DNA of 64,000 bases from NCBI RefSeq assembly GCF_003201285.1, contig NZ_QICS01000001.1, forward strand, positions 24,678-88,677, written 5' to 3'. Positions 50,811 to 58,939 of this stretch are shown piece by piece. The DNA is from Lachnotalea glycerini (GTDB lineage: Bacteria; Bacillota; Clostridia; Lachnospirales; Lachnospiraceae). Below the pieces are notes generated by a model. It was not told where the DNA came from and ran no database searches. It was given only the letters and a program-made list of their open reading frames with translations. The translations under genes were made by a program, and so were the position numbers. The stretch's first letter is position 1. The number at the start of each line of letters is the position of its first letter.

Positions 50811-51776
50811 ATGCAAAGTATAAAAATAAATAGGAATGAAGAAGGACAAAGACTTGATAAGCTTTTGGCCAAATACTTAAATAAAGCACCTAAGAACTTC
50901 TTATATAAAATGCTTAGAAAAAAAAATATTACATTAAATGGAAAGAAAGCAGATGGCAGTGAGAAACTTTGTCTTGGGGATGAAGTAAAGCTTTTTTTAG
51001 CAGATGAAACGATAGAGAAATTCTCTGAGCAGCATATAAAACAGGTAGAAGCGATTATGCTTAATATTATATTTGAAAATGAACATGTTATAATTATGAA
51101 TAAGCCTGCAGGTATGCTGTCACAAAAAGCAAAAGCTTTTGATATTTCTTTGAATGAATATCTTCTATCGTATCTGATTGAAAGTAAGAAAATTACAAAA
51201 GAAGAGCTTAAGACATTTAAGCCTTCTATCTGTAATCGGTTGGACAGAAATACGAGTGGCATTGTAATAGCGGGGAAAACGCTTGCCGGCTTACAGGAAA
51301 TGTCCAGACTATTAAGAGACAGAGATATGAATAAATATTATCGGTGCATTGTAAATGGAAACGTAACCGATAGGCAACTAATAGATGGCTGGTTATATAA
51401 GAATGAAAGAACAAATAAGGTATCAATTTTAAACAGTGAAAAAGGCGGAGCCTCTTATATCAAAACAGAATATGCTCCGATTGCACATGGTGAGGATATT
51501 ACCTTGCTGGAGGTAAAGCTGTTGACAGGCCGATCCCATCAAATTCGTGCACATCTAGCATCCATTGGGCATAGTATTATAGGTGATTATAAGTATGGTA
51601 ATCAAGCCATCAATAAGTTTTATAAGGAAAAATATAATGTCGAAGCTCAATTATTGCATTCCTACCGTTTAGAATTTCCCAAACTACCCCCTCCATTTGA
51701 AGATATGTCAGAAATGGTGATTGTTGCAGAACTTCCGATAATTTTTGAAAAGATACAAAAAGAGAAAATACTATAG
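50811..51776 (+). CDS. RluA-family pseudouridine synthase
   Basis: The 321-residue protein has an S4-like N-terminal domain (QRLDKLLAKYLNKAPKNFLY) and the RluA catalytic region NRLDRNTSGIVIAGKTLAG near 141, with the catalytic Asp, then TGRSHQIRAHLASIGH. RluA-family enzymes convert uridine to pseudouridine in 23S rRNA or tRNA; the C-subtype (RluC/RluD) is suggested by the S4 domain, but the target site is not known. The ATG at 50811 has GTGAGGT before it, and the upstream in-frame extension is only overlap with the previous gene. Confidence 0.92.
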   Translation: MQSIKINRNEEGQRLDKLLAKYLNKAPKNFLYKMLRKKNITLNGKKADGSEKLCLGDEVKLFLADETIEKFSEQHIKQVEAIMLNIIFENEHVIIMNKPAGMLSQKAKAFDISLNEYLLSYLIESKKITKEELKTFKPSICNRLDRNTSGIVIAGKTLAGLQEMSRLLRDRDMNKYYRCIVNGNVTDRQLIDGWLYKNERTNKVSILNSEKGGASYIKTEYAPIAHGEDITLLEVKLLTGRSHQIRAHLASIGHSIIGDYKYGNQAINKFYKEKYNVEAQLLHSYRLEFPKLPPPFEDMSEMVIVAELPIIFEKIQKEKIL

Positions 51777-53352: not shown

Positions 53353-54612
53353 ATGAATAGAAAGTTATTACATACTCCAGAGGGTGTACGAGATATATAT
53401 AATTCTGAATGTGAAAAAAAATTAGCTTTGCAGGAAATTTTGCATAATAAGTTTAAACTATATGGTTTTAAAGATATACAGACACCAACCTTTGAATATT
53501 TTGACATATTTAGTCGTGAGATTGGCACAATTTCATCAAAAGAATTATACAAATTTTTTGACAGGGAGGGAAATACATTAGCTTTAAGACCTGATTTTAC
53601 ACCTTCGATTGCAAGATGTGTGGCTAAATATTATATGCAAGAAGATATGCCCCTTCGTTTGTGCTATGAGGGAAATGCATTTATAAACAGCTCAGAATAT
53701 CAAGGAAAGCTTAAGGAATCGACGCAGATGGGAGCAGAATTAATTGGTGATGATACGGTGGATGCTGATGCCGAGATGATAACCCTTGTTATTCAAGCTT
53801 TATTAAAATCAGGGCTTACAAAGTTTCAGGTAGAAATTGGACAAATTGATTTTTTTAAGGGAATTTTGGAGGAAGCTGGTATTGATGAGGAAATAGAAGT
53901 TGAATTGAGGGAGCTAATATCAATTAAAAACTATTTTGGTGTTGAAGAATTAGTATCAAATCTTTCAGTAAAAGAGGAATTGAAAGAGGTATTTTTAAAA
54001 TTGCCGCAGATGTTTGGATCTATAGAAATTTTAGAAGAAGCGAAAGCTTTAACAGATAATTTATGCGCAGTTCAAGCAATTGAGAGATTGGAAAGGCTTT
54101 ATGAAGTTCTAAAAATATATGAACTGGAACAATACATTTCCTTTGATTTAGGCATGCTAAGTAAATATAAGTATTATACAGGTATTATATTTAAGGCTTA
54201 TACCTTTGGAACAGGTGAAGCTATTGTTAATGGAGGAAGATATAATAATCTGTTAGGCTGGTTTGGAAAAGAGGCTCCGGCAATCGGATTCGTTATTATT
54301 GTTGATGCGTTAATGTCTGCATTAATGAGACAAAATATTAGTATTGCATACAATAATAATCATACCATGATATTGTATAAGAGTGAGCAGCAAAAGCGGG
54401 CGATTGAGTTAGCAATTTATTTAAGAAACAAAAATAAGAATGTGGAGTTAGTCTCAATGCCTTCTGATAAAACGTTAAAAGACTGTGTAGAATATGGTAA
54501 AAGAAATCAAAACTCAGTAATTCTTTTTCTTGACAAAGATGATGAAATAATCCAGATAGATATAGAAACAGGTGATAGTCGGAAGATATTAAGGACTGAT
54601 TTGCAAGGGTAA
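53353..54612 (+). CDS. hisZ: ATP phosphoribosyltransferase regulatory subunit
   Basis: HisZ is a histidyl-tRNA synthetase-like protein that lacks the anticodon-binding domain and activates the short form of HisG. The 419-residue protein has TPEGVRDIYNSE near the start, the class II fold motifs (RPDFTPSIARCVAKYY, LRLCYEGNAF) and a C-terminal extension of about 100 residues. It is the first gene of the operon, with AAAGGATG before the ATG, and its presence with a 211-residue HisG fits the two-subunit enzyme. Confidence 0.94.
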   Translation: MNRKLLHTPEGVRDIYNSECEKKLALQEILHNKFKLYGFKDIQTPTFEYFDIFSREIGTISSKELYKFFDREGNTLALRPDFTPSIARCVAKYYMQEDMPLRLCYEGNAFINSSEYQGKLKESTQMGAELIGDDTVDADAEMITLVIQALLKSGLTKFQVEIGQIDFFKGILEEAGIDEEIEVELRELISIKNYFGVEELVSNLSVKEELKEVFLKLPQMFGSIEILEEAKALTDNLCAVQAIERLERLYEVLKIYELEQYISFDLGMLSKYKYYTGIIFKAYTFGTGEAIVNGGRYNNLLGWFGKEAPAIGFVIIVDALMSALMRQNISIAYNNNHTMILYKSEQQKRAIELAIYLRNKNKNVELVSMPSDKTLKDCVEYGKRNQNSVILFLDKDDEIIQIDIETGDSRKILRTDLQG

Positions 54613-54632: not shown

Positions 54633-55268
54633 ATGAGATATATAACATTTGCCCTTGCAAAAGGGCGTTTAGCTAAAACAACATTAGGTATGTTTGAAAA
54701 AATTGGTATTACATGTGAGGAAATGAAAGATAAGGATTCCAGAAAGCTTATTTTTGTCAATGAGGAGTTAAAGCTTCGATTTTTCCTTGCAAAGGCGCCT
54801 GATGTACCTACGTATGTAGAATATGGGGCAGCAGATATTGGAATCGTTGGTAAAGATACAATATTAGAAGAGGGTAGACGTCTCTTTGAGGTATTGGATT
54901 TAGGCTTTGGAAAATGTAAAATGTGTGTAGCAGGGCCAAAGACTGCAAGGGAATTATTGCAGCATCATGAATTAATACGGGTTGCGACGAAATATCCAAA
55001 TATAGCCAAGGATTACTTCTATAATAAAAAGCACCAAACAGTAGAAATTATTAAATTAAATGGTTCCATTGAACTGGCTCCCATTGTTGGTTTGTCGGAA
55101 GTCATAGTAGATATTGTTGAGACTGGGGTTACGCTAAGGGAAAATGGGTTGGATGTCTTGGAAGAAATATGTCCCCTATCTGCAAGAATGGTAGTCAATC
55201 AAGTGAGTATGAAAATGGAAAATGAGAGAATTACAAAGCTGATAACTAACTTACGCTCAATTTTGTAA
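54633..55268 (+). CDS. hisG: ATP phosphoribosyltransferase catalytic subunit, short form
   Basis: HisG condenses ATP and PRPP, the first step of histidine synthesis. The 211-residue protein is the short form, without the C-terminal regulatory domain, and so depends on HisZ. Motifs include [30 protein letters not shown] and the PRPP-binding region [23 protein letters not shown] precedes the ATG, 20 bases after hisZ. Confidence 0.97.
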
Positions 55269-55290: not shown

Positions 55291-56580
55291 ATGAGAATAA
55301 TAAGAATGGATGAAAAGACAAAGAAGAATCTTTTGGATGATTTATTAAAAAGAAGTCCCAATAATTACGACTCTTATACAGCATCGGTGAATGAAATAAT
55401 AAATACAGTAAAAAACAAAGGAAATCAGGCTGTTTTTGAGTATACAAAGCAATTTGACAAAGCAGAAATTAGTGAAGAGAATATAAAGGTTACAAATGTA
55501 GAAATAGAAGAGGCTTATCGTTTAGTAGATCAAAGTCTGATCGATGTGATGCGTAAGGCACTGTTGAATATTAAAAGTTATCATGAAAAGCAGCGTCAAT
55601 ACAGTTGGTTTGACAGTACGCCAAATGGAACCATACTGGGGCAGAAAGTAACTCCGCTTGAAAAAGTGGGTGTTTATGTACCGGGAGGCAAAGCCGTATA
55701 TCCATCTTCGGTGCTTATGAATATTATACCTGCAAAAGTAGCGGGGGTGTCAAAGATTGTTATGACAACTCCTCCAGACAAGGATGGTAAGGTGAATCCG
55801 AACACGTTAGTGGCGGCAAAGGAAGCCGGAGCAGATGAAATATACAAGGTTGGAGGAGCACAAGCCATTGCAGCTTTAGCTTTTGGTACAGAAAGCATTC
55901 CAAAGGTGGATAAGATTGTGGGACCCGGCAATATTTATGTTGCTCTGGCTAAAAAGTCGGTTTATGGGTATGTGAATATTGATTCCATTGCAGGACCTAG
56001 TGAAATTCTTGTTATAGCAGATGAGACGGCGAATCCAAGATTTGTTGCAGCCGATCTTTTATCACAGGCGGAGCATGATGAATTAGCTTCGGCTATATTG
56101 GTTACTACGAGTGAAGAATTAGCAGAGAAAGTATCAAGGGAAGTAGAGCAGTTTGTATCTAATTTATCTAGAAAAGAAATATTAGAAAAATCTTTAGAAA
56201 ATTATGGATATATTTTATTGGTAAAGGAATTAGAGGAAGCAATTTCAGTAGCCAATGAGATTGCATCTGAGCATTTGGAAATCGTTACAAAGGATCCATT
56301 TACTGTGATGACCAAAATTAAAAATGCAGGTGCTATCTTTATTGGTGAATATAGCTCAGAGCCTTTGGGTGATTATTTTGCCGGACCAAATCATGTATTA
56401 CCGACCAATGGAACTGCTAAATTCTTTTCACCGCTTGGGGTAGATGATTTTATAAAAAAATCAAGTATTATATCCTATTCAAGAGAAGCTTTAGAGCCGA
56501 TTCATAAAGATATTATTCAATTTGCAGAAGCAGAACAGCTTACAGCACATGCCAATTCGATAAAAGTTAGATTTGAGTAG
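55291..56580 (+). CDS. hisD: Histidinol dehydrogenase
   Basis: HisD carries out the last two oxidations that convert histidinol to histidine, with NAD and zinc. The 429-residue protein has VGVYVPGGKAVYPSSVLMN, KVDKIVGPGNIYVALAK, the region GPSEILVIADETANP, the zinc-binding QAEHDE near 259 and the catalytic SEHLEI and GPNHVLPTNGTA regions. TTTGGAGGA precedes the ATG. It follows hisG by 22 bases. Confidence 0.98.
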   Translation: MRIIRMDEKTKKNLLDDLLKRSPNNYDSYTASVNEIINTVKNKGNQAVFEYTKQFDKAEISEENIKVTNVEIEEAYRLVDQSLIDVMRKALLNIKSYHEKQRQYSWFDSTPNGTILGQKVTPLEKVGVYVPGGKAVYPSSVLMNIIPAKVAGVSKIVMTTPPDKDGKVNPNTLVAAKEAGADEIYKVGGAQAIAALAFGTESIPKVDKIVGPGNIYVALAKKSVYGYVNIDSIAGPSEILVIADETANPRFVAADLLSQAEHDELASAILVTTSEELAEKVSREVEQFVSNLSRKEILEKSLENYGYILLVKELEEAISVANEIASEHLEIVTKDPFTVMTKIKNAGAIFIGEYSSEPLGDYFAGPNHVLPTNGTAKFFSPLGVDDFIKKSSIISYSREALEPIHKDIIQFAEAEQLTAHANSIKVRFE

Positions 56581-56592
56581 GAGGATTACAAA

Positions 56593-57183
56593 ATGGAGGA
56601 ACGTAAAGCCACTATAAATAGAAAAACAAAGGAAACTGAAGTTGACTTAGAATTAAATATTGATGGAGCAGGAGTTTCAAATATAGAAACAGGTATCGGT
56701 TTCTTTGACCATATGCTAGATGGCTTTGCAAGACATGGTTTATTTGATCTTTCTGTTCTAGTAACGGGCGATTTGGTAGTGGATTGCCATCATACGATAG
56801 AGGACACAGGAATTGTTCTTGGTAATGCAATTAAGGATTCGATAGGTGACAAAAAAGGAATTAAGCGCTATGGAAGCTGTATTTTGCCTATGGATGATGC
56901 TTTGGTACTTTGCTCAATCGATTTATCAGGTAGACCCTATTTAGCTTTTGAGCATGAATTTACAACGGATCGTGTTGGATACATGGATACTGAAATGGTA
57001 AGAGATTTTTTTTATGCAATCTCTTATTCTGCGGGAATGAATCTTCATCTTAAAGTAATGTCAGGAACCAACAATCATCATATTATAGAAGCAATGTTTA
57101 AGTCATTTGCAAAGGCATTGGACGAAGCTACTATAATAGATGCCAGAATCAGAGATGTGTTATCAACAAAGGGAACTCTATAA
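56593..57183 (+). CDS. hisB: Imidazoleglycerol-phosphate dehydratase
   Basis: This is the monofunctional dehydratase form of HisB (196 residues), without the phosphatase domain seen in enterobacteria. It dehydrates imidazole glycerol phosphate in a manganese-dependent reaction. The metal-binding histidine motifs are present: GFFDHMLDGFARHG near 37, DCHHTIEDTG near 63 and NNHHIIEAMFKSFAKAL near 157. TAGGAGG precedes the ATG and hisD ends 12 bases before. Confidence 0.98.
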   Translation: MEERKATINRKTKETEVDLELNIDGAGVSNIETGIGFFDHMLDGFARHGLFDLSVLVTGDLVVDCHHTIEDTGIVLGNAIKDSIGDKKGIKRYGSCILPMDDALVLCSIDLSGRPYLAFEHEFTTDRVGYMDTEMVRDFFYAISYSAGMNLHLKVMSGTNNHHIIEAMFKSFAKALDEATIIDARIRDVLSTKGTL

Positions 57184-57198
57184 TTAAGGAGATTGCGT

Positions 57199-58479
57199 AT
57201 GTTTAAGAAAATAGTAAGCTGTATTTATTTAAAGGATAAAAAAGCGGTAAAGAGTTTACATAGTAATGAAATAGTGAGTGATAATCCCATTCGCCTGGCA
57301 AAATATTATAGTGATAACGGTGCAGATGAAATTATAATTTTTGACTTATCGGTATCTGATTTTGAGCATGAACAGTCCATCGGAATCATCAAAGAAATTG
57401 CAAGAGTAATTGAAATACCAATGATTGCAGGGGGGAATATTAAACGTGCAGAGGATGTGAAAAAGCTTCTTTATGCAGGAGCTTCAAAAGCAATGCTTAA
57501 CTATGCAAAGGAGGAAAACATTGCACTAACGGAGGAAGTATCAAAGCGTTTTGGAAAAGAAAAGCTTGCAGTATGTGTGGATTCTGCCCAGCAAATTTAC
57601 AAAAATAAAGCTCAAATAGAAGAATTTGTGTCCTTGCTTGTGGCTATAAAGGAAATTGAATTAGAGAAAAATCAGGCAATTATTCCGGTCAAGATATTTG
57701 CCTTGCTTGATACAATTGATTTAGGTTATTTGATAAAAACACTATATTTGGATATCGTAGAAGGGGTTAGCGGTGAGTTAATAAATAGCACAGAAACCGA
57801 TTTGCTTCGTGTGAAAGCCGCATGTAAAGCTGCTGATATTAATGTGGATTTATTTGAAAGTGAAATGAAATGGTCAGAATTTAAATTAAATTCGGATGGA
57901 ATGATTCCAGTTGTTGTGCAGGATTATAAGACAAATGAGGTGTTAATGCTGGCTTATATGAATGAAGAGGCGTTTCTTAAAACAATTGAGACTGGTAAAA
58001 TGACCTATTGGAGCCGAAGCAGAAATGAATTATGGACAAAAGGGCTGACTTCAGGGCATTTCCAATATGTAAAATCTTTAATAATGGATTGTGATAATGA
58101 CACGATGCTTGCCAAGGTGTCACAGATTGGGGTGGCTTGTCACACAGGGAAACGAAGCTGCTTTTTCCAAAAGGTTGTTGAAAGGGAATATAAAGAAACG
58201 AATCCTTTAAAGGTTTTTGAAAAGGTATATGGTGTAATTGAGGATAGAAGAAGAAATCCAAAAGAAGGCTCTTATACGAATTATTTATTCGAGAAAGGGA
58301 TCGATAAAATCCTTAAAAAGCTGGGAGAGGAAGCAACTGAAATTGTTATTGCAGCTAAAAACCCAGACCCAGAAGAAATAAAATATGAAATGTCTGATTT
58401 TTTATATCATGCTATGGTATTAATGGTTGAGAAGGGTGTTACATGGGAGGATATAACGAAAGAATTGTCAAATAGATAA
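57199..58479 (+). CDS. hisIE: HisF-like domain fused to HisI and HisE
   Basis: The 426-residue protein has three parts. Residues 1-220 align with HisF (cyclase TIM barrel): [18 protein letters not shown] matches the HisF N-terminus, but the catalytic Asp11 is Tyr10, while the second catalytic Asp remains as Asp128 (AVCVDS). The second half of the barrel is poorly conserved. Residues 223-325 are HisI (cyclohydrolase) with the metal motif MDCDNDTML and Cys314/Cys321. Residues 338-426 are HisE (pyrophosphatase) with [20 protein letters not shown]. HisI and HisE look active; the HisF part probably is not. The ATG at 57199 has AAGGAG 7 bases before it. It is the last gene of the operon, and hisH, hisA and a normal hisF are absent here. 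Confidence 0.88.
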
Positions 58480-58597
58480 TCATGGGGAGCTTCTATAGCA
58501 TAAAATATCATGATTCAAATGGTCATAAACGATGAAGTGGCGGCATATAATATCAATAAGATTATATGCTATCACTTTTTTTGTTGGAGGAATTAAG

Positions 58598-58939
58598 ATG
58601 CGTAATTCATCTTTGGAACAAAGAGTTGAAATGATTCAGAATATAAGAGAAATATCAGCCAATAATGAAAGAACAATGAGTAACATACATGGTATAATAG
58701 GAAATTCTTTTTCAACTGACACTGTTGCAACGAAAAGCAAAAGCAAAAATAAATTTAAATATCGTATGTTAATTGCATCTGTAATGTTTGGCATATATGT
58801 TTTGTTAGCCATAGAAAATCTGCAATGTATGGGATATGATTCGAAAGCTATTGATAAAATGATAGCGTATAATATTGATTATAAGGAAATATTAGAACAA
58901 GTGAACGTTCAATTAACAAATGCTGTAAAGTCTGAGTAG
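58598..58939 (+). CDS. Small single-pass membrane protein
   Basis: The 113-residue protein has a soluble, polar N-terminal half (about 1-50), one hydrophobic segment near 56-73 (MLIASVMFGIYVLLAI), then a short C-terminal part. No family is recognised. TTGGAGGA precedes the ATG at 58598; a longer frame from 58532 lacks one. It lies between the his operon and the diguanylate cyclase gene, 75 bases before the latter, so the two may be cotranscribed. Confidence 0.7.
   Translation: MRNSSLEQRVEMIQNIREISANNERTMSNIHGIIGNSFSTDTVATKSKSKNKFKYRMLIASVMFGIYVLLAIENLQCMGYDSKAIDKMIAYNIDYKEILEQVNVQLTNAVKSE

Follow-up and report, generated by a model that had tools for sequence, protein, structure and literature searches.

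Textbook examples of the TIM barrel, HisF and HisA serve as models for the evolution of enzymes and for ammonia channelling. The active site of HisF lies at the C-terminal strand ends of the barrel, and in the established histidine pathway the product of HisI is the substrate of HisA. Five his fusions are given in the accessible text of Fani et al. 2007 (PMC1963479), namely the hisA/hisF elongation, hisIE, hisHF, hisNB and hisIED, with hisIE occurring in part of the Clostridia; the fusion of a dead HisF to HisIE is absent from these five. In the accessible part of PMC9413887, hisF-hisI-hisE is mentioned in a single sentence as one of the fused genes, with nothing further said of it. For Roseburia, the available portion of PMC7478625 gives his loci split into hisG/Z/D/Bd/EI, hisF/H and a separate hisA, which is the same split as that found here, and an extra domain on hisEI goes unmentioned in that portion. 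A survey of titles and abstract openings, with most subscription papers outside its scope, did not find a dead HisF fused to HisIE. The protein described here completes a natural series that begins with active operonic HisF and ends with a barrel that is dead, fused and under selection; intact-looking fusions known from other families and a HisA that died in the same way allow comparison. As the assays for this pathway are well established, the question of why pseudo-enzymes are kept can be put to a direct test.

The window, that is, the whole stretch of 64,000 nucleotides of Lachnotalea glycerini that was analysed, carries a his operon on its forward strand. hisZ (53353-54612; TIGR00443, 323.6 bits against a cut-off of 271.65), hisG (54633-55268; TIGR00070, 206.4 against 75.75), hisD (55291-56580; TIGR00069, 571.1 against 243.8) and hisB (56593-57183; NF002111, 277 against 231) are followed by a 426-codon frame at 57199-58479, which starts with the ATG at 57199 (an alternative TTG lies two codons 5′). 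As the original prediction had it, this single open frame encodes a HisF-type barrel fused to HisI and HisE, in that order. The HisF-derived (beta/alpha)8 barrel, hereafter F′, covers residues 1-222 (57199-57864, forward strand) and is assigned from Pfam PF00977, phmmer against the PDB, AlphaFold2 (AF2) and fold matches. HisI (phosphoribosyl-AMP cyclohydrolase) occupies residues 225-331 (57871-58191, forward strand; NF000768, 165.4 bits; PF01502, 120 bits), and HisE (phosphoribosyl-ATP pyrophosphohydrolase) residues 341-426 (58219-58476, forward strand; TIGR03188, 107.3 bits; PF01503, 76.1 bits). In Pfam, His_biosynth (residues 5-163, 86.8 bits), PRA-CH (250-323) and PRA-PH (342-425) are all above cut-off. 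The HisI and HisE motifs are intact, as had been claimed, with strong scores over residues 225-330 and 341-423, respectively, and with their conserved positions kept in the window protein and in most of 101 aligned proteins. The fusion, F′-IE, thus resembles the bifunctional HisIE (NF002747/PRK02759) in having both domains (271.9 bits against an equivalog cut-off of 187), but differs from it by the extra barrel of 222 residues. Since the fusion protein is the sole match to PF01502 in the genome, it is very likely the HisI of the cell. At the same time, matches to both HisF and HisIE domains could lead to its being annotated as trifunctional. Between positions 51000 and 60000, no Rfam family reached its gathering score.

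Genuine hisA, hisF and hisH genes, which the original prediction had proposed to look for, are all present above cut-off in the L. glycerini genome (4.86 Mb, 97.9% complete). Contig 17 carries adjacent hisH and hisF genes (HisH, 238.7 bits against 105.4; HisF, 384.6 bits against 294.55), and contig 7 a eukaryote-type HisA (TIGR02129, 322.3 bits against 229.3); the three pass their cut-offs again when scored as proteins. With separate HisF, HisH and HisA, the steps from HisZG to HisB/HisD are covered without any cyclase activity of F′, and the genuine HisF rules out F′ as the cyclase of this genome. Other identities were also rejected: as a HisA, F′ scores 51.6 bits against the TIGR00007 cut-off of 228.95 and is placed beside HisF in the tree described below, while for WbuZ and AglZ-HisF2 it remains below cut-off with 84 against 299.7 bits (TIGR03572) and 68.7 against 310 bits (NF038364).

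The first 130 residues of F′ align to HisF in the PDB search with Tyr10 (codon at 57226-57228) in the position of Asp11, and the multiple alignment agrees with this replacement of the catalytic residue, which had been noted from the start. Against the HisF profile TIGR00735, F′ reaches 80.9 bits, below the cut-off of 294.55, with a match spanning residues 3-138; altogether, likeness to HisF sequences ends at about residue 130-165 according to NCBIfam, Pfam and PDB phmmer. In counts that hinge on the alignment, 34 of 35 F′ domains lack Asp11, locus L128 being the sole Asp bearer (three HisA-HisI fusions, L176, L178 and L186, were excluded from the initial 38 rows), whereas D11, K19, D51, G82, D130 and D176 are present in 31/31 HisF proteins of the family and its sister families, and N103 in 30/31. 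HisF Asp130 aligns with Asp128 of the window protein, a position that varies across 101 proteins (N in 41, T in 18, D in 12).

Structure prediction and profile comparison, both of which had been suggested as checks, give a predicted barrel nearest to HisF that misses the HisF and HisA cut-offs. The AF2 model of F′, built on an alignment of 80 sequences, has a mean pLDDT of 93.9 and eight strands forming a complete barrel. Its best PDB folds are HisF structures, aligned within residues 1-225 at most (4evz: VIA Z 25.1 over 222 residues, at 24% identity and an rmsd of 2.8); HisA reaches about Z 22. The view that the N-terminal 220 residues are plainly HisF-like therefore stands for the predicted fold and not for the sequence, in which the likeness is limited to the first 130-165 residues. 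Nor is the second half eroded in this protein, as had been supposed; it is divergent, contributes to a full eight-strand predicted barrel and is under purifying selection in six close pairs of relatives (dN/dS 0.065). F′ shares with HisF (TIGR00735; 1gpw, 1thf, 4evz) the predicted barrel fold, Asp49 and Asn101 (HisF D51 and N103) and its place in the operon, but has Asp11 replaced, is about 30 residues shorter, lacks HisF-like sequence in its second half and is fused to HisIE. Judged from its sequence, with Asp11 lost and a second half without likeness to HisF, F′ has most likely ceased to produce IGP and AICAR. The loss of Asp11 and the separate HisF, HisH and HisA of the genome support the proposal that F′ is a pseudo-enzyme, and we regard this as highly probable.

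Regarding the origin of the domain, operon position points to descent from a resident hisF. Among 20 sister-family loci, picked by hand from the best-scoring HisF rows of other families, hisF lies directly 5′ of hisIE or hisI in 18, with hisA just upstream of hisF in 17 of those; in the remaining two, hisF stands alone. In the named records, the order hisZ-G-D-B-F′IE is found in 67 of 80 loci (the best 80 of at least 518), several of the others being cut by contig ends. The regions of the own family discussed here were likewise chosen by hand, one set of 20 for divergent F′ and for genomes of interest and further ones mostly for a weak or absent F′ match, and are not random samples; in 8 of 20 such loci, hisB and F′-IE are separated by a hisA-type gene. 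Two further family loci (L182 and L205) show the full order hisZ-G-D-B-H-A-F-I(E), and their his genes, low-scoring against those of the window, may be foreign. In a tree, the 35 F′ domains form one clade (100% support), sister to 31 HisF proteins (95%) and with 12 HisA proteins outside; WbuZ and AglZ were left out of this tree, and long branches make the depth of the F′ branch and the deep order unsafe. The operon order suggests that an operonic hisF of old lost catalysis in place. The old gene would have been fused in place to hisIE, with the separate hisH-hisF pair serving the cyclase reaction; F′ would have lost its catalytic Asp11, and selection would subsequently have retained the barrel as a part of HisIE without catalytic function.

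Decay is not an inevitable result of fusion, as indicated by intact HisF-HisI(-HisE) fusions in other families. Intact-looking HisF-HisI fusions are found in his operons of other families of the class (L234-L239), as is one intact-looking HisF-HisI-HisE fusion in a frame of 470 residues (L240, 1135-2544, reverse strand), which from its sequence is possibly trifunctional. These seven fusions resemble F′-IE in domain order and his operon setting and differ in their hosts and in having kept the catalytic HisF residues, with D11, K19, D51, G82, N103 and D130 in 7/7 and D176 in 6/7.

A parallel loss has affected operonic HisA. A canonical-type HisA is present in 25 hand-picked family loci, in three as part of a HisA-HisI fusion; its catalytic Asp is gone in six of the 25, replaced by N (L126, L131), H (L179, L181, L190) or F (L211). 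The eukaryote-type HisA profile TIGR02129 is above cut-off in 6/6 genomes with an Asp-less HisA versus 0/19 of the others, a split that indicates that here, too, a displaced barrel remained in the operon past the loss of its catalytic Asp. The three HisA-HisI frames (L176, L178, L186; 355-382 residues) keep the HisA catalytic motifs and lie after hisB in the his operon.

F′ is widespread in its own family, the Lachnospiraceae. A search with the window sequence, counted by eye, found it in at least about 130 of 200 genomes. Among the strongest matches, as listed for the order, F′ was present in 32 of 33 genomes of the family, while in 213 genomes of other families none of the listed matches extended past residue 137, that is, they looked HisF-like; for the class, the numbers were 17 of 18 genomes of the family and, again among the matches listed, no match beyond residue 137 in 374 genomes of other families. 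Among the matches listed, those reaching past the HisF half are thus confined to the Lachnospiraceae. A scan of named records gave at least 518 encoding relatives, of which the best 80 were retained; many of these are titled Lachnospiraceae, a few titles give other groups (e.g., Muribaculaceae, Bacillus), all as MAGs, and the two named hosts that were checked were both Lachnospiraceae. A plasmid home was rejected, as 72,556 plasmid records gave no match at E 1e-20, and so was decay in one genome alone, given the spread over the family together with purifying selection. On the other hand, of 39 family regions chosen by hand, 13 have HisI alone in the place of F′-IE and three more a HisA-HisI fusion, so F′ is dispensable over evolution. 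The HisI-only frames at this site (L180, L188, L192-L199, L202, L207 and L210) encode 114-173 residues, and the one in L196 stands after a hisA. Three genomes with F′ and hisD (G037, G044 and G165; 90-96% complete) and one with HisI alone (G014; 99% complete) have no HisF above cut-off, for which assembly gaps would be the simplest reason. In another locus (L140, 5913-7382), the HisE end turns in a frame-like manner into unrelated residues, perhaps because of a genuine frameshift or a fault in the assembly, and the HisE branch takes the maximum value of 10.

Purifying selection acts on all parts of the fusion. Pooling of six close pairs that are independent of one another gives a dN/dS of 0.032 for the first and 0.065 for the second half of F′, 0.026 for HisI and 0.024 for HisE. 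These values, with 61 nonsynonymous versus 287 synonymous differences in F′, weigh against its being a harmless vestige on its way out, kept because the start of the fusion lies upstream. The faster evolution of F′ relative to HisI (median HisI/F′ ratio of terminal branches 0.69, in 123 proteins after removal of twelve near-identical ones) and its partial or complete loss in some lineages would fit a vestige, but 18 F′ positions are conserved in 93% or more of the 120 proteins compared and a full barrel is predicted at high confidence, and this explanation, already disfavoured, is in our judgement very improbable. Instead, F′ is read as a selected, non-catalytic and separable domain.

The distribution of the conserved residues offers some indication of what is being selected. 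In the class I alignment of 80 proteins, the invariant positions include D43, D49, S51, D54, H57, G79, E85, D86, K88, Y92, G94, F118, G119, G189 and K206, and N80, R83, N101, S103 and K104 are near-invariant. Asp49, Ser51, Asp54, His57, Gly79, Asn80, Arg83, Asn101, Ser103 and Lys104 are placed at or just past the C-terminal ends of strands 2-4, as read from predicted secondary structure rather than from inspected coordinates, and would form a candidate binding face. We lean towards a retired operonic HisF kept for binding, in which these polar residues, clustered in the first half on the catalytic face, would bind a partner protein or a ligand carrying phosphate and thereby regulate or position HisIE. 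Such a pocket would contain new polar residues; as an alternative surface, an interface on helix 3 might serve, in a role that would be to regulate, assemble or localise HisIE. A phosphate pocket is not a feature shared by every F′, since the class II domains (L124-L126, L128, L129, L131-L133 and others) are without loop 1, the Gly82 region and Asn101.

When class II is included, most of the best-kept positions among 101 proteins fall on helix 3 or on the turn that leads into strand 5 (R83 in 97, E85, D86 and K88 in 100 each, K89 in 97, Y92 in 99, F118 and G119 in 101). This pattern, together with the dismantling of the class II pocket while the helix 3 and turn residues stay, is what would be expected if F′ were a structural scaffold only, stabilising or oligomerising HisIE without any ligand, with the conserved residues forming an interface. 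We consider such a role possible but doubtful, because it leaves the invariant or nearly invariant polar cluster of class I unaccounted for and because the full-length AF2 model of F′-IE (mean pLDDT 88.9, pTM 0.62; L103 and L121 were omitted from its alignment, and the short or cut L074 and L099 from some alignments) predicts no firm packing, so the arrangement of F′ relative to HisIE is not firmly predicted. Counting against the binding reading, HisIE does not generally need F′, given the regions with HisI alone and two Faecalimonas loci (L154, L155) in which HisIE is whole while F′ lacks part of its second half.

It could also be envisaged that F′ docks the eukaryote-type HisA or HisHF, channelling the ProFAR made by HisI onward. 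HisI and HisA share this compound as product and substrate, F′ and the Asp-less HisA in one operon could be the remnant of a complex, and K4, E44 and K97 of F′ match R5, E46 and K99 of HisF in the PDB phmmer alignment, residues that we take to be the HisH-side gate. However, the F′ classes do not strictly follow the type of HisA, class II being found with either, and F′ is kept in two Faecalimonas genomes (G123 and G444) that have neither a hisD match nor a HisF-level match, which speaks against HisF/HisH docking as its sole role. Docking is accordingly given a low probability.

These two genomes also show F′ and HisI parting ways. In both G444 (whose protein matches L103, F. umbilicata DSM 103426) and G123 (equivalent to L121, L136 and L148), the F′-IE frame is open, hisD gives no match, and the F′ profile finds no second match at the level of HisF; in G123, HisF above cut-off was not found either. 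The gene directly 5′ of F′-IE is hisZ in L103 and recU in L136, so the locus has lost hisG, hisD and hisB. Near-invariant F′ positions are retained at 18/18 (L103) and 17/18 (G123) and conserved HisE positions at 46/49 and 44/49, as opposed to just 37/50 and 23/50 in HisI. The HisI/F′ branch ratios are 2.78 in L103 and 5.79 in G123, values reached by one and none, respectively, of 120 other proteins. In Pfam, all three domains of L103 are still above cut-off, while in G123 His_biosynth and PRA-PH are above and PRA-CH is below (21.8 versus 27). By a rough estimate, free drift of HisI would be expected to produce about 9 stops in G123, where the chance of finding none is about 1e-4, and 3.6 stops in L103, where it is 0.03. 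The converse is observed within the same genus in L154 and L155, where hisD is present and 0/99 HisIE positions are lost, but F′ has lost 4 and 3 of its 18 positions, respectively, and part of the second half. F′ and HisI are thus constrained independently, and the retention of F′ beside a decayed HisI is a further point against the scaffold.

The Faecalimonas remnant might be taken as a new protein combining a binding barrel with a nucleotide pyrophosphohydrolase, which would give F′ a job outside histidine synthesis. We consider this unlikely, owing to the looser branches of both domains in the orphan genomes: those of F′ are 0.18 (L103) and 0.22 (G123) against a median of 0.10, and those of HisE 0.34 and 0.90 against 0.08, clearly looser in G123. 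A histidine-free role as a general property of F′ is also counted against by the ten hisD-less genomes among the 200 (completeness 90% or more, contamination 5% or less), of which only G113 and G123 contain F′-IE, the other eight giving no F′-IE match. G113 (L137), which has no hisD match, has decayed chiefly in HisE and HisI, with 16/49 and 13/50 positions lost, respectively, and has also lost R83 and Y92 of F′. The product of hisZ is the partner of HisG, and in both L103 and L137 hisZ still adjoins F′-IE, although the genome gives no hisD match and the available stretch contains no hisG.

Directly 3′ of F′-IE, the window encodes a small predicted membrane protein without a Pfam match (58532-58939, forward strand). 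With phmmer, relatives of this protein turn up at the same site in 13 or more of the 75 loci; three loci outside these 13 (L066, L094 and L083) have a similar small frame by eye. In the window, the small membrane protein adjoins F′-IE in a genome whose histidine pathway is intact.
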